Origin: Nioella halotolerans
GTDB lineage: Bacteria; Pseudomonadota; Alphaproteobacteria; Rhodobacterales; Rhodobacteraceae
Length of the DNA: 64,000 nt
Reading direction: 5' to 3'
NCBI GenBank assembly: GCA_003428585.1
Contig: QVQC01000046.1
Location: forward strand, 50,512 to 114,511
The notes below the pieces were generated by a model. The model was not told the origin of the DNA and searched no databases. It was given only the letters and a program-made list of their open reading frames with translations. The position numbers were made by a program, and so were the translations under genes. Below are positions 15,837 through 35,932 of this stretch, piece after piece (within the stretch, counting starts at the first letter, position 1; each line of letters begins with the position of its first letter).

Positions 15837-17264
15837 TCAGTTTTCCCGTCCATTGAACACGGTGTCCGTGTAGGTGCGCGTGCCGCTGGCCTCATCCTCC
15901 AGCCAGAGCCGGAACTCCGTCCTCTCGCGGTTGCCCGCCGGGCTGTCGGGCCCTGCTGTCACGTATACACGTTGCGATTGTGTGGTGTCAGCGGGTACCG
16001 TTACGGACAGGCCCTCGGCGCCTTCAACGTCAATGTCCAGCGCCGCCTCCGACGTCAGCGAGAAGACGAAAGAGGTTTCATCATGCTGCATGTTGCGGAT
16101 CCGCACGTCATAGGTATTGCGGACCGTGCCATCGGAAAGGGTGACGTATTGCGGGTTGCGCACCGGCGAGACCGTCATGTCGATATCGGAGCGGATGAAC
16201 AACAGCACGACCAGCCCGACGCCAATGGCGGCCCAGAGCGCGGTATAGATCATCGTGCGCAGGCGGAAGACATGCTTCCAGACCGGGATTTTCGGCTTGC
16301 CGGCGCGTTCATTCGCCTCGTCCGTCAGGGCCATGTAGTCGATAAGCCCCCGCGGTTTGCCGATCTTCTCCATGATCTCGTCGCAGGCGTCGATGCACAG
16401 CGCGCAGGTGATGCATTCCAGTTGCTGCCCGTCGCGGATGTCGATGCCCACCGGGCAGACATTGACGCAGGCCATGCAGTCGATGCAGTCGCCAAGCTGG
16501 TCTGCATCGGCCCCCTTGCGGTGCTTGCCGCGCGGCTCGCCGCGCCACTCACGGTAAGCGACGGTCAGCGAATCCTCGTCCATCATCGCCGCCTGGATGC
16601 GTGGCCAGGGGCACATGTAGATGCAGACCTGTTCGCGCATGAAGCCGCCGAAAATGAAGGTCGTCGCGGTCAGGATGCCGATCGTGGCATAGGCCACGTA
16701 GGGGGCGTCGAAGGTGACAAGGTTGATGGCCAGCGTCGGCGCGTCGGTAAAATAGAACACCCAGGCCCCGCCGGTGGCCACGGCGATCACGAACCACACC
16801 ACGTATTTGGTGGCGCGCAGGCGGATCTTCTTGCCATCCCATTTCTGTTTCCAAAGGCGCAGGCGCGCGTTGCGGTCGCCCTCGATCCAGCGTTCGACGG
16901 TATAGAACAGGTCCGTCCAGACGGTCTGCGGGCAGGCATAGCCGCACCAGACCCGGCCAAGCGCCGAGGTGAACAGGAACAGGCCAAGCCCCGCCATGAT
17001 GAGCAGGCCGGCGACGAAGTAGAACTCGTGCGGCCAGATCTCGATCCAGAAAAAGAAGAAGCGCCGATTGGCCAAATCCATCAGCACCGCCTGGTCGGGC
17101 AGCGACGGGCCGCGATCCCAACGGATCCATGGCGTCAGGTAATAGATGCCAAGGGTCACGATCATGATGGCCCACTTGAGGTTCCGAAACGACCCCTTGA
17201 CCCGCTTGGGAAAAACGGGTTCGCGGGCCGCGTAGAGCTTTTGGGGTTCTTCTGTGGAACTCAT
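15837..17264 (-). CDS. ccoG: cbb3 oxidase assembly iron-sulfur protein CcoG (RdxA/FixG)
   Basis: 475 residues, an integral membrane ferredoxin-like protein with about five helices. A membrane-region CGYACPQTVW and CIYMCPWPRIQ are followed by two 4Fe-4S motifs, CIDCMACVNVCPVGID and CITCALCIDACD (~residues 255-300). The C-terminal periplasmic Ig-like domain is typical of FixG. It acts as a cupric reductase in delivering Cu to the cbb3 oxidase. The ATG at 17264 has AAGGTGA 9 nt upstream; an in-frame GTG at 17276 overlaps that site and is less likely. An FNR-like box lies ~78 nt upstream. Confidence 0.94.
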   Translation of the reverse strand: MSSTEEPQKLYAAREPVFPKRVKGSFRNLKWAIMIVTLGIYYLTPWIRWDRGPSLPDQAVLMDLANRRFFFFWIEIWPHEFYFVAGLLIMAGLGLFLFTSALGRVWCGYACPQTVWTDLFYTVERWIEGDRNARLRLWKQKWDGKKIRLRATKYVVWFVIAVATGGAWVFYFTDAPTLAINLVTFDAPYVAYATIGILTATTFIFGGFMREQVCIYMCPWPRIQAAMMDEDSLTVAYREWRGEPRGKHRKGADADQLGDCIDCMACVNVCPVGIDIRDGQQLECITCALCIDACDEIMEKIGKPRGLIDYMALTDEANERAGKPKIPVWKHVFRLRTMIYTALWAAIGVGLVVLLFIRSDIDMTVSPVRNPQYVTLSDGTVRNTYDVRIRNMQHDETSFVFSLTSEAALDIDVEGAEGLSVTVPADTTQSQRVYVTAGPDSPAGNRERTEFRLWLEDEASGTRTYTDTVFNGREN

Positions 17265-17335
17265 GGCCGGAGTCACCTTTCGAGTCGGATTACCTTGGCA
17301 TGGTCGTGGTGTAGGAGGCGCACGGTATGGCAGCC

Positions 17336-17349
17336 TTGACGTGGATCAA
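17336..17349 (-). promoter_or_regulatory. FNR/FnrL-type box upstream of ccoG
   Basis: TTGAC-GTGG-ATCAA, one mismatch from TTGAT-N4-ATCAA. Its centre (17342.5) is ~78 nt from the ccoG ATG. A class II arrangement (-41.5) would put the start near 17301, with TACACC (minus strand, 17313-17308) as a weak -10. This gives ccoGHIS its own oxygen-responsive promoter. Confidence 0.6.
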
Positions 17350-17599
17350 GTCGTCACCGCGTCGCATGAAAAAGATGAGTTGCCGGAATAGGTTTTTGCA
17401 GGGGGTGCGGCGAAATACCCTGCCCGAAATAGCCAAGGCCGACCCTGCCTGAGCGTTCTCGAGGGACGGGCGTCGGCTGTTCTTCAGTCTGCGCGGTCTC
17501 TTTCCCACGCCAGGTGCTTTCGGTTGCAACCATGACACCGCAACGGGCCGTGCCGGGGCAAGCCCGGGTGTTCCTGCCGGAGCGTTCGGGGCAAGGAAA

Positions 17600-17681
17600 G
17601 TGTCGGCCCCACAGGAAACGCGCGAACAGGACCGGGGCCGACACCTTTTCCGAAGGCCGGTTGGGCCTTGCGGAACTCTTG
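17600..17681. repeat. Structured repeat unit 1 of a tandem pair (91-nt period) in the ccoP-ccoG spacer
   Basis: 82-nt unit, 80% identical without gaps to the unit starting at 17691. It folds into two hairpins. The first pairs GTGTCGGCCCC (17600-17610) with GGGGCCGACAC (17634-17644) around a 23-nt loop. The second is 17648-17675, where TTCCG pairs with CGGAA and AAGGCC with GGCCTT. The loop of the first hairpin is almost unchanged between units. No T-run follows on either strand, so neither hairpin is a classical terminator. Confidence 0.8.
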
Positions 17682-17690
17682 TCTCTTTGG

Positions 17691-17772
17691 GTGCCGGCCC
17701 CGCAGGAAACGCGCGAACAGGACCGGGGCCGGCACCTACTCCGGCGGCCGCGAGCGGCCACCGGAATTCTTG
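17691..17772. repeat. Structured repeat unit 2 of the tandem pair, 8 nt downstream of the ccoP stop
   Basis: Second unit of the pair. Its large hairpin pairs 17690-17702 with 17724-17736, a perfect 13 bp. Relative to unit 1, T17603-A17641 becomes C17694-G17732, a compensatory change that keeps the pair. Its smaller hairpin is 17740-17765 (TCCGG/CCGGA and GGCCGC/GCGGCC with a C-A mismatch). It begins right after ccoP, so in transcripts it is the 3' untranslated part of ccoNOQP. Confidence 0.8.
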
Positions 17773-17779
17773 CCGAGGA

Positions 17780-18688
17780 CTACTCCCCGCCGCCCAGCGA
17801 GTGGACGTAGACCGCGAGCGAGCGCACCTCGGCCTCGGACAGGCGCCCCGCATCGGAGGCCTCCGCCGACCAAGGCGGCATGACACCGAACCGCGAATAG
17901 CGCACGGTTTCCTCGATCGAGGCGACATCGCCACCGTAGAGCCAGATCGCATCGGTCAGGTTGGGCGCCCCGAGGAAGCGGTCACCGGTGCCGTCATCCA
18001 TGTGGCAGGAGGCGCAGTTGTTGAGGAACACCTCCTCGCCCGCGCTTGCCAGCGTTGAATCGTGCTCTTGGTCGGAAATGCTGCGCACGTATTGGACGAC
18101 GCTGTCGATTTCCTCGTCGGTCAAGATCTCATCAAAGGCTGTCATCTCGGAATAGCGGGCGTCCAGATCGTCCTCGTTGCGGATGCCATGACTGATCGTG
18201 TAGTGGATCTCGTCCAGCGAACCGCCCCAAAGCCAGTCATCGTCCAGCAGGTTGGGATAGCCCGAGGCCTGAACCCCTGCGGCGCCCGACCCGTGGCATT
18301 GCGAACACCATGTCATGAACAGCGCTTCGCCACCCTGCTGGGCATAGTTGTAGAGGTCCGGATTATCGTCGGGATTGATCGCCGCAAGCTCGACCTCCTC
18401 GATCTCGGCGCGGACCGGTGCGTTCATCGCCTCGAAACTGGAGATGTCCTCGGCCACCTCGCCGCGGGTCGAATACCCGAGGATCCCGGCGGTCGAGGTG
18501 CTGACCAGCGGCCATGCCGGGTAAAGCACGGTGTAGATCAGCGCCCAGACGATCGTGGCGTAGAAGGTCCACAGCCACCAGCGCGGCAGGGGGTTGTTGA
18601 ACTCCTTGATCCCGTCCCACGAGTGCCCGGTGGTGTCCGGATCACCCTCTTGCAGTTTCTGTTCTTCGGGGTGTTTTTCTTCGGTCAT
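17780..18688 (-). CDS. ccoP: cbb3-type cytochrome c oxidase subunit III (di-haem)
   Basis: 302 residues. A soluble N-terminus is followed by one or two membrane helices (residues ~37-70), then two cytochrome c domains with CSQCH (C128/C131/H132) and CASCH (C225/C228/H229). The distal Met in FGVMPPW is visible. CcoP transfers electrons from soluble or membrane cytochromes to CcoO and CcoN. The start overlaps the ccoQ stop by 4 nt. The stop is followed after 8 nt by the tandem hairpin repeats. Confidence 0.96.
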   Translation of the reverse strand: MTEEKHPEEQKLQEGDPDTTGHSWDGIKEFNNPLPRWWLWTFYATIVWALIYTVLYPAWPLVSTSTAGILGYSTRGEVAEDISSFEAMNAPVRAEIEEVELAAINPDDNPDLYNYAQQGGEALFMTWCSQCHGSGAAGVQASGYPNLLDDDWLWGGSLDEIHYTISHGIRNEDDLDARYSEMTAFDEILTDEEIDSVVQYVRSISDQEHDSTLASAGEEVFLNNCASCHMDDGTGDRFLGAPNLTDAIWLYGGDVASIEETVRYSRFGVMPPWSAEASDAGRLSEAEVRSLAVYVHSLGGGE

Positions 18689-19649: not shown

Positions 19650-21254
19650 TTATTCAGCGGGCGCCGCAGCGGTGGTGGTTGCCTTGGCAACGCCCTTCCG
19701 CACGGTCATCCACAGGTTATAGGCCATGATCAGCGCACCGCCGAGGTAGAGAACCCCACCGAGGCCACGGACCACATACATCGGGAACTTGGCCGCCACG
19801 GTGTCGGCGAAGCTGTTCACCAGAAAGCCCTGGTCGTCGACTTCGCGCCACATCAGGCCTTCCATGATGCCGGTCACCCACATCGACGCGGCGTAGAGCA
19901 CGATGCCGATGGTGGCGAGCCAGTAGTGCCAGCTGACCATTCGCAGACTGTAAAGCGCCTGGCGGTTCCACAGCTTGGGCACGAGGTAATAGAGCATCCC
20001 GAAGGTGATCATGCCGTTCCAGCCAAGCGCGCCGGAATGCACGTGGCCAATCGTCCAGTCGGTATAGTGCGAAAGCGAATTGACCGCGCGGATCGACATC
20101 ATCGGGCCTTCGAAGGTCGACATGCCGTAGAAGGCCACCGAGGTCACCATCATCCGAAGCACCGGGTCGGTGCGCAGCTTGTCCCACGCGCCCGACAGCG
20201 TCATCAGGCCGTTGATCATGCCGCCCCAACTGGGCATCCACAGCACGATCGAGAACACCATGCCGAGGGTCGAGGCCCAGTCCGGCAGCGCGGTGTAGTG
20301 CAGGTGGTGCGGACCGGCCCAGATGTAGATGAAGATCAGCGCCCAGAAGTGGATGATCGACAGCTTGTAGGAATAGACCGGGCGTTCGGCCTGCTTCGGA
20401 ATGAAGTAATACATCATGCCGAGGAAGCCCGCGGTCAGGAAGAAGCCCACCGCGTTATGGCCATACCACCACTGCGTCATGGCATCCTGAACACCCGAGA
20501 ACAGCGACACGGAGCGCGACCCGAAGATCGACACCGGCACGGCAAGGTTGTTGACCACGTGCAACATCGCCACGGTGACGATGAAGCTGAGGTAGAACCA
20601 GTTGGCGACGTAGATATGCGGTTCCTTGCGCTTGATCAGTGTGCCCATGAACACAGCGAGATACGCGACCCAGACCACGGTCAGCCACAGGTCGATATAC
20701 CATTCGGGTTCCGCGTATTCCCGGCTCTGCGATCCGCCAAGGATGTAGGAAGTCGCGGCCAGAACGATGAAGAACTGGTAGCCCCAGAGCACGAACCAAG
20801 CCAGGCCGCCGCCCCACATCCGCGCGGCACTGGTGCGCTGCACGACGTAGAAGGACGATGCGATCAGCGCCGTGCCCCCGAATGCGAAAATCACCGCCGA
20901 GGTGTGCAGCGGCCGAAGCCGACCGAAATTCATGTAGCCCTGCGCCCAGTCGAAATTCAGCTGCGGGTAGGCAAGCTGGAAGGCGATGAACACCCCGACC
21001 AGAAAGCCCACGACGCCCCAGAAGGCCGTGAGCGCCACCCCGACCCGAACCGGGCCATCCATGTATTCGGTTTCCAGCACCTCTGCCGAAACAGGTTCAT
21101 CCGTGCGGCGCAGCTGCCACAGGAAAAGCCCCGTCGCCGTCACCATGACCAGGATCATGTGAATCATGTACAACATGTCCCTGGCGTAACTGGCCGCGAT
21201 CGCGGCCAGCACCGCCACGAGGCCAAGGATCAGTAGCTTCACGTAATCAAGCAT
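19650..21254 (-). CDS. ccoN: cbb3-type cytochrome c oxidase subunit I
   Basis: 534 residues, 12 membrane helices, haem-copper oxidase type C. It carries the His ligands of the low-spin haem (LRPLHTSAV), the Cu-B/haem b3 centre ([20 protein letters not shown]) and [12 protein letters not shown]. This is the catalytic O2-reducing, proton-pumping subunit with high oxygen affinity. I chose the ATG at 21254 ([11 protein letters not shown]): AAGGGA lies 8 nt upstream and it matches CcoN N-termini of Rhodobacter. An upstream in-frame start adds 19 non-conserved residues. An FNR box lies at 21347-21360. Confidence 0.96.
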
Positions 21255-21346
21255 CGATCGTCCCTTCGTCGCGCCCCGGTACGCCTCGAAAGCCGTCCGG
21301 GACTGTTCCATCTGACCCCAGATCGCGCAGGAAACGCGATCCGGCT

Positions 21347-21360
21347 TTGATTCATATCAA
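21347..21360 (-). promoter_or_regulatory. Perfect FNR/FnrL box for ccoNOQP
   Basis: TTGAT-TCAT-ATCAA, an exact match to the FNR consensus, centred ~99 nt upstream of the ccoN ATG. The analogous position upstream of ccoN carries the FnrL site in Rhodobacter. The motif is symmetrical; the assignment to ccoN is from position. Confidence 0.85.
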
Positions 21361-21379: not shown

Positions 21380-21393
21380 TTGATGCAGGTCAA
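21380..21393 (+). promoter_or_regulatory. FNR/FnrL box for the uspA gene
   Basis: TTGAT-GCAG-GTCAA, one mismatch. Its centre (21386.5) and a TAGAGA at 21416-21421 fit a class II promoter (start near 21428) for the universal stress gene at 21448. The ccoN and uspA boxes are separated by only 19 nt. Confidence 0.7.
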
Positions 21394-22633: not shown

Positions 22634-23380
22634 TCAGGAATAGACGCCACCATCCGTATCGTCGCCGGTCTCGTCCATCAGCGCCTCGACATCGGGCACC
22701 ACGATATGTCGCTTGCCCCGCAATTCGATTACGCCGTCACGCTTCAGGGCCGACATCTGGCGGCTCACCGTTTCCAGCGTCAGGCCAAGATAGTCGGCCA
22801 TCGCTTCACGCGTCAGCGGAAGATCGAAAGACAAGCTTGCCGCCGCACCCACATTCTTGAGGCTGGCATCGCGCCGGGCGATGATCGCAAGGAAACTGGC
22901 AATTTTCTCACGCGCCGTCTTGCGCCCGAGGATCAGCATCCATTCCCGCGCCGCGTCCAGTTCATCCAGCGTCATTTCCAGCAGTCGCTGGCTCACATGC
23001 GGCGTCTCTTCGATAAGGGCTTGAAACGAGGCACGCCGGAAACAGCAGAGAGTCACATCGCTCGTTGCGGTCACGTCGTAGGCCGCCGATTCGCGGTTCG
23101 GGCGTCCCAAGAAGTCGCTCGGCAACAACAAACCGACCATCTGGCGCCGGCCATCCTCCATGGTCTGGGTCAGGGCCGCGACACCCTCGACCACCGACGC
23201 CACGAAATCCATCTTGTCGCCGGCCCAGGCAATCGTCTGCCCAGCCTCGAACCGCCTGTAATACTTGATCGCGTCAAGCCGTTCGAGTTCATCGGATTCG
23301 CAACGCGCGCAAACGGCACGGTGCCTGATCGGGCAATCCGAACAAGCCATGTCCGAGACTGCCAGAGAGTTGTTGGGCAT
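22634..23380 (-). CDS. fnrL: Oxygen-sensing Crp/Fnr-family regulator FnrL
   Basis: 248 residues. N-terminal cluster cysteines lie in CSDCPIRHRAVCARC (C13, C16, C24, C27), with a further Cys pair in TLCCFRR (~112) as the fourth-ligand candidate for a 4Fe-4S cluster. A cNMP-like beta-barrel and dimerisation helix (~140-165) follow. The HTH has the recognition helix LTLETVSRQMSALKRDG, whose E-SR pattern reads TTGAT. It activates microaerobic genes when the cluster is intact. AAGGA precedes the ATG by ~7 nt. The shared upstream box (23417-23430) could also mediate autoregulation. Confidence 0.95.
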   Translation of the reverse strand: MPNNSLAVSDMACSDCPIRHRAVCARCESDELERLDAIKYYRRFEAGQTIAWAGDKMDFVASVVEGVAALTQTMEDGRRQMVGLLLPSDFLGRPNRESAAYDVTATSDVTLCCFRRASFQALIEETPHVSQRLLEMTLDELDAAREWMLILGRKTAREKIASFLAIIARRDASLKNVGAAASLSFDLPLTREAMADYLGLTLETVSRQMSALKRDGVIELRGKRHIVVPDVEALMDETGDDTDGGVYS

Positions 23381-23416: not shown

Positions 23417-23456
23417 TTGATCTCGATCAATTACATCCTGTGCGCACGTATATAAT
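23417..23456 (+). promoter_or_regulatory. FNR class II promoter of hemN
   Basis: Perfect FNR box TTGAT-CTCG-ATCAA at 23417-23430 and a perfect TATAAT at 23451-23456. The box centre lies 30 nt from the -10 centre, the class II spacing. Transcription would begin around 23463-23466, i.e. at the hemN start codon. Confidence 0.85.
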
Positions 23457-23465
23457 CCTACGCTA

Positions 23466-24821
23466 ATGGAAAATCTTGCGCAACTTCGTCGCCTCGGCCT
23501 GTTCGAGGCAAAGGTCCCGCGCTACACCAGCTATCCGCCCGCCACGAAGTTCTCGAACGACGTGGATTCTGGTGTCTACGAGGACTGGATCCGCGCGATC
23601 CCCGCCGGAACGCGGGTATCGCTGTATCTGCATGTGCCTTTCTGCCGCAGGCTGTGCTGGTTTTGCGCCTGCCGCACGCAAGGGGTGCGCAGCGACGCGC
23701 CGGTGCAGGCTTACCTCGAAACCCTGAAGCAGGAAATCCGGCTGGTCGCCGGAATGTTGCCCAGCGGGGTGGAGGTTGCAAGGCTGCATTGGGGGGGTGG
23801 AACGCCCACGCTGCTGTCTGACAGGATGATCGCGGACCTATCGGCGGAACTAGCGCGGTCTTTCCCATATTCCGAGGACATCGAATTCTCGGTGGAGATC
23901 GACCCGAATGAAATCGGCCCCGCCCGGCTCGACGCTCTGGCCGCGGCCGGAATGAATCGCGCCTCGATCGGGGTGCAGGATTTCGACCCGGGCATTCAGA
24001 AGATCATCGGGCGCATTCAGAGCTACGAGGTGACGCGCAACGCGGTGGAGGAACTGCGCGCACGCGGAATCACATCGCTCAACGCCGATATCCTCTTTGG
24101 CCTGCCGAACCAGACGCAGGAACGTATATCCGACACGGTGCAGATGCTGCTATCGCTGACCCCCGACCGGGTGGCGCTCTACGGCTATGCGCATGTGCCG
24201 TGGATGGCGCGGCGGCAGGCGATGATCCCGACGGAATCGCTGCCCCGCCCCGAGGAACGGCTCGAGTTGTTCGAGACCGCCCGCCGCCTGTTCAAATGGG
24301 ACGGCTACGATGAGATCGGTATCGACCATTTCGCCAAGCCGGGGGACGGGCTGGCCAAGGCGGCGCAGAGCGGGCACCTGCGGCGCAATTTCCAGGGCTA
24401 TACCGATGATACCTGCGACGCGCTGATCGGGCTCGGCGCCTCGTCGATCTCGAAATTTCCGCAAGGCTTTGCACAGAACGCCTCCGGGACTGCCGACTAC
24501 CAGAAAGCCGTGCGCGCCGGCCACCTGTCCACGGGCCGTGGGCATGCGTTCAAGGGCGATGACCGGCTGCGCGCAAGGCTGATCGAGGCGTTGATGTGCG
24601 ATTTCCACATAGACAGCGCCGAGATTCGCCAAAGCTTCGGGCTGTCGGAGGCGCAGTTGCGCGCGATCTACCAAGGAGCCGCCGAGGCCTTCCCGGCGAT
24701 GGTGGACTGGGACGATAGCGGCTTCTCCATCCGCCCCGAGGGGCGGCCGTTGGCCCGCCTGATCGCGCGCGCCTTCGATGCCTATGAAATGCAGGCGGAC
24801 GGGCACAGTTCCGCGATCTGA
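23466..24821 (+). CDS. hemN: Oxygen-independent coproporphyrinogen III oxidase
   Basis: 451 residues, radical-SAM HemN. The cluster motif is HVPFCRRLCWFCAC, with C60/C64/C67 and the extra HemN-type Cys69. The SAM-binding GGGTP follows near residue 115, then the C-terminal HemN domain (~330-440). It makes protoporphyrinogen IX without oxygen. The start MENLAQLRRLGLFEAKVPRY matches HemN N-termini, and no Shine-Dalgarno fits because the -10 box ends only 10 nt before the ATG. The mRNA therefore seems leaderless. Divergent from fnrL with a shared FNR box. Confidence 0.95.
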   Translation: MENLAQLRRLGLFEAKVPRYTSYPPATKFSNDVDSGVYEDWIRAIPAGTRVSLYLHVPFCRRLCWFCACRTQGVRSDAPVQAYLETLKQEIRLVAGMLPSGVEVARLHWGGGTPTLLSDRMIADLSAELARSFPYSEDIEFSVEIDPNEIGPARLDALAAAGMNRASIGVQDFDPGIQKIIGRIQSYEVTRNAVEELRARGITSLNADILFGLPNQTQERISDTVQMLLSLTPDRVALYGYAHVPWMARRQAMIPTESLPRPEERLELFETARRLFKWDGYDEIGIDHFAKPGDGLAKAAQSGHLRRNFQGYTDDTCDALIGLGASSISKFPQGFAQNASGTADYQKAVRAGHLSTGRGHAFKGDDRLRARLIEALMCDFHIDSAEIRQSFGLSEAQLRAIYQGAAEAFPAMVDWDDSGFSIRPEGRPLARLIARAFDAYEMQADGHSSAI

Positions 24822-35777: not shown

Positions 35778-35876
35778 GTGAGGGGTTGGCGCGGGCAAGC
35801 GCCTCGCCAACCTGGTCAGGACCGGAAGGTAGCAGCCACAACGAGCCCCGCTTGGGTCGATGTCCAACCTCTCACC
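35778..35876 (+). ncRNA. ffs: Signal recognition particle RNA (small bacterial type)
   Basis: The universally conserved apical signature GGTCAGGACCGGAAGGTAGCAGCC is present at 35814-35837. The ends pair as GTGAGGGGTTGG (35778-35789) with CCAACCTCTCAC (35864-35875), giving a ~99-nt 4.5S-type hairpin that binds Ffh. The exact 5' and 3' ends are estimated. It lies 49 nt after the phosphodiesterase gene. Confidence 0.95.
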
Positions 35877-35932
35877 CCGCTTTCAGGTCGCGCGCAGAAC
35901 ATGCCGCGGCCTGATGCGTTTCGCGGCCCTCA

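Follow-up and report, generated by a model that had tools for sequence, protein, structure and literature searches.

The intergenic stretch behind ccoP in Nioella halotolerans carries two tandem copies of a two-hairpin unit which, matched by location and by a stem with a conserved tip to the accessible part of the published description, is a tandem form of the HRC-8-4 motif (PMC8632094). We consider it reasonably probable that this motif belongs to an FNR-controlled small RNA that acts in trans via the loop of its larger hairpin, SL2, and that is derived from the 3'UTR in the window (the whole stretch of 64,000 nucleotides analyzed here) and stands alone elsewhere. Comparison across relatives establishes a conserved predicted RNA structure, its strand and its gene context, as well as an FNR box with a promoter signature at those loci where the motif is detached from ccoP. 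A motif so far listed without a function and tentatively read as a riboswitch would thereby become a testable sRNA of the oxygen response in a large and widespread bacterial family, and its loci would offer a natural series for the passage of an sRNA between an mRNA 3' end and a promoter of its own.

The cbb3 oxidase operon of the window is located on the minus strand in the order ccoN, ccoO, ccoQ and ccoP, followed by an intergenic stretch, ccoG and more genes. The cco names were assigned by homology, except for the gene that we take to be ccoQ. The features of the locus are as follows:

19650-21311, minus strand: ccoN, at the head of the operon that ends in the repeat units (homology)
17780-18688, minus strand: ccoP (FixP_N)
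15837-17276, minus strand: ccoG, next gene downstream of the repeat (translation)
21347-21360, no strand assigned: FNR box upstream of ccoN (box search)
21380-21393, no strand assigned: second FNR box, between ccoN and usp (box search)
17336-17349, no strand assigned: FNR box between the repeat and ccoG (box search)
17738-17767, minus strand: SL1 of unit 1, GC-rich and variable, preceding SL2 (local fold)
17690-17736, minus strand: SL2 of unit 1 (the ccoP-proximal unit), 13-bp stem with conserved loop (covariance model R1, 69.4 bits)
17706-17720, minus strand: loop core CTGTTCGCGCGTTTC of unit 1 (exact match)
17648-17675, minus strand: SL1 of unit 2 (local fold)
17597-17647, minus strand: SL2 of unit 2, with the short tail TTTCCTT at its end (R1, 70.3 bits)
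17615-17629, minus strand: loop core CTGTTCGCGCGTTTC of unit 2 (exact match)

The 82-nt copies at 17600-17681 and 17691-17772 are spaced by 91 nt, share 80% identity without gaps and are separated from the ccoP stop (17780) by 8 nt, in agreement with a sequence-only reading of the region that had first described them. That reading folded the wrong strand: because the cco genes are on the minus strand, the sequence it folded has to be reverse-complemented to give the RNA, and on the functional ccoP strand each unit consists of the short hairpin SL1 followed by SL2 with at least 13 pairs and the loop CUGUUCGCGCGUUUC. Two hairpins per unit, as it had proposed, are obtained in the local fold (four hairpins, -102.0 kcal/mol), but the lowest-energy fold (-112.2 kcal/mol) pairs arms between unit 1 and unit 2. 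The minus-strand fold is far better than those of shuffled sequences (z -6.6; 0 of 200 shuffles as good), and the plus-strand fold is also better than shuffles (z -5.2). The T-A to C-G swap between the units (17603/17641 versus 17694/17732) is present, and A17611 versus G17702, next to the stem, is a second difference. A CGCGCG palindrome in the SL2 loop, broken in a few relatives, forms a kissing contact in the global fold of the window, and the SL1 loops of the window are UCGC and CAACC, the CCUCCC loop of the sister species being lost. No terminator-like site was found 3' of unit 2, and the tail after its SL2 reads only TTTCCTT. The search for genome-wide copies that the reading had proposed comes down to one locus, no further copy being found in the own genome by DNA similarity or by exact loop match; the repeat has no match at Rfam cut-offs. 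Elsewhere in the window the bacterial small SRP RNA (RF00169) was recognized at 35779-35877 (+) with 56.9 bits.

The hairpin is present in all six genomes of the genus, and among the best 80 of 226 ccoP loci of relatives the loop core (at most 2 mismatches) lies no further than 2.5 kb downstream of ccoP in 53, and in 50 of these no further than 100 nt. In the alignment of the 54 hairpins from which the covariance model R1 was built, two-sided changes occur in 10 of 11 stem pairs. Of 589 cells 95.4% are paired, a share that leans towards structure because a stem filter had been used to choose the rows; the two-sided changes are less affected by this. The covariation score of 0.551, compared with 0.277 in shuffles, was matched neither in 500 shuffles nor in any slid version. 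Selection on structure, suggested earlier by the single covarying pair of the two units, is thus well supported: that pair, weak alone, is not a chance event, since 10 of 11 pairs vary two-sidedly in relatives. The columns of the SL2 loop are nearly invariant over 168 distinct units (chosen with at most 3 mismatches). The 1680 stem cells of these units, read on the ccoP strand in a register set by scoring without preference for wobble pairs, comprise 1587 Watson-Crick, 55 G-T and 12 A-C combinations, counts that serve as a guide since the admission filter is more lenient towards G-T than towards A-C and the sequences, being related, are not independent of one another. Because G-U exceeds A-C on this strand, and G-U here equals A-C on the other, the selected form is likely the RNA of the ccoP strand.

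Across 394 genomes of the family R1 matched 189 at E<=0.01, a few of the weakest of which may be chance, and 182 of the 189 had a single match. Among 289 genomes of the class it gave 4 matches, two of them in Rhodobacteraceae and two (E 0.002-0.003) inside open frames. Copies and conservation outside the window, whose absence the sequence-only reading had named as evidence against itself, were therefore found, together with the further covarying pairs it had proposed to look for, and its proposal of a 3'UTR RNA or repeated sRNA of the cbb3 operon is well supported by the comparative data. ccoP (FixP_N) occurs in 355 of the 394 family genomes, and the motif, as judged from lists compared by eye, in 188 of these 355 versus 1 of the 39 without FixP_N; about half of the ccoP genomes have no R1 match. 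The single motif genome without FixP_N (G334) is 73% complete and contains LysR, the motif and ccoG, with no ccoN match. One genome (G280) has a rare copy elsewhere, a second R1 match of 42.5 bits on contig 30 (793829-793885; L292), a few bases after a TAA and with no cco genes around; a frame about 0.6 kb away is presumably malyl-CoA-lyase-like.

When the surroundings of the best R1 matches were fetched, 108 loci could be placed. In 97 of them a co-oriented ccoP precedes the motif by at most 1.5 kb, at a median distance of 48 nt (62 at 32-66 nt), and 63 of the 108 are found 32-84 nt after the ccoP stop. The next gene downstream is ccoG in 56 loci and LysR in 46, at distances wider than that to ccoP; LysR is the nearest upstream gene in 3. 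One explanation of this arrangement is that SL2 serves only as a 3'-end stabilizer or terminator of the ccoNOQP mRNA, blocking exonucleases, with its loop bound by a processing or chaperone protein and with no action in trans. The position close behind ccoP, the near restriction of the motif to genomes with ccoP and the very stable fold all favor it, as do the SL2 tails, which are T-rich (at least 5 T in 8) in 45 of 168 units compared with 44 of 840 control windows. Since a separate terminator follows SL2 in only 19 of 159 R1 loci, SL2 itself may be the terminator in many. Against it stand the fixed 15-nt loop, for which a pure terminator has no need, and the loci in which the motif is not close to ccoP.

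We termed loci near when ccoP is within 100 nt (63 loci) and detached otherwise (the other 45 of the 108), and searched up to 300 nt upstream of SL2 for the FNR box pattern TTGAY-N4-RTCAA. A box was present in 45 of 45 detached loci, 44 times perfect (shuffled copies, 2 of 45), at 52-135 nt from SL2 with a single exception at 173 nt. In near loci it was present in 2 of 63, each with one mismatch (shuffled, 1 of 63). Behind the box, 37 of the 45 detached loci display T (0.49) and G (0.68) at positions 20-21, a TANANT-like hexamer at 23-28 (T 0.43, A 0.78, A 0.57 and T 0.59 at 23, 24, 26 and 28) and C (0.51) and A (0.68) at 34-35. In a class-II FNR promoter the -10 element and the +1 sit at those distances behind the box, and the detached loci, with an FNR box followed by a -10 and start-site signature, appear to have a predicted FNR promoter of their own. 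The RNAs predicted from this signature (n=37) have a median length of 121 nt (78-161), and CCUCC or CUCCC precedes SL2 in 12 of the 37 versus 5.4 expected. Where ccoP of a detached locus is 100-600 nt distant, the interval from the ccoP stop to the FNR box contains an intrinsic terminator in 18 of 21 cases (shuffled, 1). A further detached locus with an FNR box (L070) belongs to the ccoP-anchored set, outside the 45, and L105 is the same locus as L172, with identical box and distance. A loop match at L089 (two mismatches, 2.1 kb off, no FNR box) was rejected as chance, since L089 carries a short-loop hairpin behind ccoP. In genome G014 (L036, 1347-1590) an FNR box (1347-1360), a 14-codon frame, SL1, SL2 and a ccoI-like gene remain; the surrounding 3 kb showed neither ccoP nor ccoG, and ccoN has a single match in this genome, a 53% relative 1.6 Mb away. 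The FNR box of every detached locus, the terminator of ccoP ahead of that box in most of the loci checked and the retention of box and SL1-SL2 in G014 speak against a mere mRNA 3' end, and we regard the stabilizer explanation as unlikely.

The near loci are linked to FNR as well, through the start of the operon. With one mismatch allowed, ccoN is preceded by an FNR box in the window as well as in each of the 20 relatives fetched, and by this criterion the near form, as in the window, belongs to a predicted FNR-box operon of which the motif is the 3' end. Downstream of the motif an FNR box occurs within 300 nt in 24 of 48 near and 10 of 37 detached loci; in the window it is the box at 17336-17349, at which the next transcription unit probably starts anew. 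Another perfect box at 23417-23430 is situated between frames 22634-23380 (FNR/Crp-type regulator) and 23466-24821 (HemN-like), both named by inspection. The string GCGTTTCC, which the window has both in the SL2 loop and in the 5'UTR of ccoN, was dismissed as chance, because L385 is the only one of 20 relatives to share it, and there it lies well upstream, at -143.

A second explanation, also improbable in our view and to about the same degree, is a terminator-embedded riboswitch or attenuator, in which the loop would bind a ligand or HvrB, a LysR protein, and control read-through into hvrB or ccoGHIS. In the accessible part of their paper the HRC-8-4 authors speculate along these lines, naming an ON riboswitch or HvrB binding (PMC8632094). 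LysR or ccoG as the following gene (46 and 56 of 108 loci) and the T-rich SL2 tails agree with this proposal, and detached loci consist of an FNR promoter, the hairpin and then mostly a co-oriented gene. A riboswitch of the HMP-PP or guanidine-IV type would control a co-oriented gene behind it, and ccoG or LysR is co-oriented downstream in 102 of the 108 placed loci, including most detached ones, so that a leader or mixed role may exist. However, the next gene is predicted from reading frame and codon bias to be convergent, before any ccoG or LysR, in four loci (L226, L232, L233 and L065) of the twelve checked, four of which have no ccoG or LysR nearby and eight of which were picked by eye. 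In addition, the FNR boxes downstream of the motif, the tighter distance to ccoP than to ccoG or LysR, and tandem units that share one loop, which would be odd for a single switch, argue against read-through control.

Further evidence on this point comes from Yoonia and Loktanella relatives, whose SL2 has a shorter loop, CUGUUCGCGCA. In the 12 of 24 such loci with a 15-nt loop, from which model R2 was made, the covariation of the stem is 0.795 versus 0.263 in shuffles (0 of 500), and 8 of 10 pairs show two-sided changes, a number also reached by 92 of 500 shuffles. A separate terminator is located 3' of the hairpin in 21 of 24 loci; therefore SL2 is not the terminator in this branch, as it may be elsewhere. 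Together with the convergent neighbors, these separate terminators lower the riboswitch reading, and an FNR-controlled sRNA fits the data better than the published guess. The genome count of R2 (217 of 394 at E<=0.1) includes genomes without FixP_N and was discarded as unspecific. In 40 genomes taken from the listed ccoP genomes without an R1 match, degenerate forms were found in 5 by a fixed rule and in about six more by eye. Hairpin loops behind ccoP keep TGTTCGC followed by A or G at L329, L330, L333, L338, L342, L346, L349, L351, L362 and L364, all from genomes without an R1 match and some assigned by eye, a pattern that would suit a G[UUCG]C tip with a U-R pair.

The number of units per locus differs within the genus: one in G004, two in the window and three in G001, G002 and G005, with five loop-core matches on two contigs in G003. 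Outside it, two units with the same 91-nt spacing occur in one other genus (G378, L252) and two units 160 nt apart in G414, so far placing tandem units mainly in the genus of the window. In a small tree unit 1 of the window groups with the single unit of the near relative L055 (0.918), and the two units of L252 group together (0.895); the number of units has therefore varied inside the genus, and tandem arrays probably originated on more than one occasion. From one tandem unit to the next the stems differ and the loop is retained. The sister species also show the T-A/C-G swap between unit 1 and unit 2, for which inheritance is the simplest explanation. A selfish or REP-like element present here by accident, for which the tandem copies within the genus might speak, was rejected for the own genome on copy number and is very improbable overall, given one match in 182 of 189 matching genomes, the position of the matches at the cco locus in the loci examined, and tandem units that differ in their stems yet keep the loop.

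In the model of an FNR-controlled sRNA that we prefer, both units would be tandem HRC-8-4 hairpins at the 3' end of a ccoNOQP transcript with FNR boxes at its start, and would be released from this mRNA as a small regulatory RNA accumulating while FNR is active, i.e. when oxygen runs low. We infer that the RNA is produced, processed and active in trans, the invariant SL2 loop (core CUGUUCGC) contacting target mRNAs or a partner protein, with SL2 and its T-rich tail also protecting or ending the RNA. In many relatives the SL1-SL2 module lies outside the ccoP 3'UTR and is preceded by a predicted FNR promoter, which would make it a separate gene some 80-160 nt long. In the six genomes of the genus, antisense matches to the loop (15-mer, 2 mismatches) number 209, a figure in which the copies themselves are counted, versus 147 for the reversed pattern; these counts speak neither for nor against targets. 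The accessible literature on sRNAs and RNase E sites of Ruegeria, Paracoccus and R. sphaeroides gave no passage on a transcript at this locus.

The description of HRC-8-4, in its accessible part, lists 160 representatives, from Rhodobacterales only, primarily between ccoNOQP and ccoGHIS and sometimes beside hvrB, with a terminator-like stem and a conserved tip and with no function assigned (PMC8632094); we found no other paper naming it in the literature searched. Our loci share the taxonomic range, the interval, the occasional hvrB neighbor and the strong stem with its conserved tip. Beyond that description, as far as it is accessible, go the tandem arrangement (1-3 units per locus in the genus), the SL1 partner, the short-loop branch with its own terminator and the FNR boxes before detached copies (PMC8632094). 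New are these boxes with their promoter signature, and the motif as the 3' end of an FNR-box operon when it is behind ccoP.

Two FNR-controlled sRNAs of enterobacteria, FnrS, from a gene of the FNR regulon, and NarS, from an mRNA 3' end, are described in the accessible part of PMC8139620 and would correspond to the detached and near forms by likeness of working only, no kinship being claimed. On balance we lean slightly towards the view that HRC-8-4 constitutes the 3' module of an FNR-controlled sRNA of family-wide occurrence in the Rhodobacteraceae, a counterpart of FnrS and NarS by convergence, which has moved, probably more than once, between the ccoP 3'UTR and an adjacent stand-alone FNR promoter and has in this genus been amplified to two or three units that share their loop but differ in their stems. 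Fixed loops on free stems are likewise known, from the accessible parts of PMC10253847 and PMC3927594, in CcsR1-4, cuckoo RNAs and other alphaproteobacterial sRNAs with anti-Shine-Dalgarno loops; CcsR is likewise tandem behind a gene, usually with a DUF1127 gene as neighbor, and the CCUCCC loop in SL1 of the sister species recalls it. The kinship with tandem Rhodobacter sRNAs suspected in the sequence-only reading did not hold: membership in CcsR1 (RF02791)/cuckoo RNA was rejected at 30.5 bits with long inserts against a gathering cut-off of 65.3, ten relatives had no RF02791 match, and the CCUCCUCCC loops of these RNAs are absent from SL1 of the window, CCUCCC occurring only in sister species. 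The SL2 loop differs from that of CcsR, and the element as such had already been published as HRC-8-4. A further parallel, by description only, is PcrZ of Rhodobacter sphaeroides, a low-oxygen sRNA that, according to the accessible part of PMC8139620, needs PrrA and, perhaps indirectly, FnrL.
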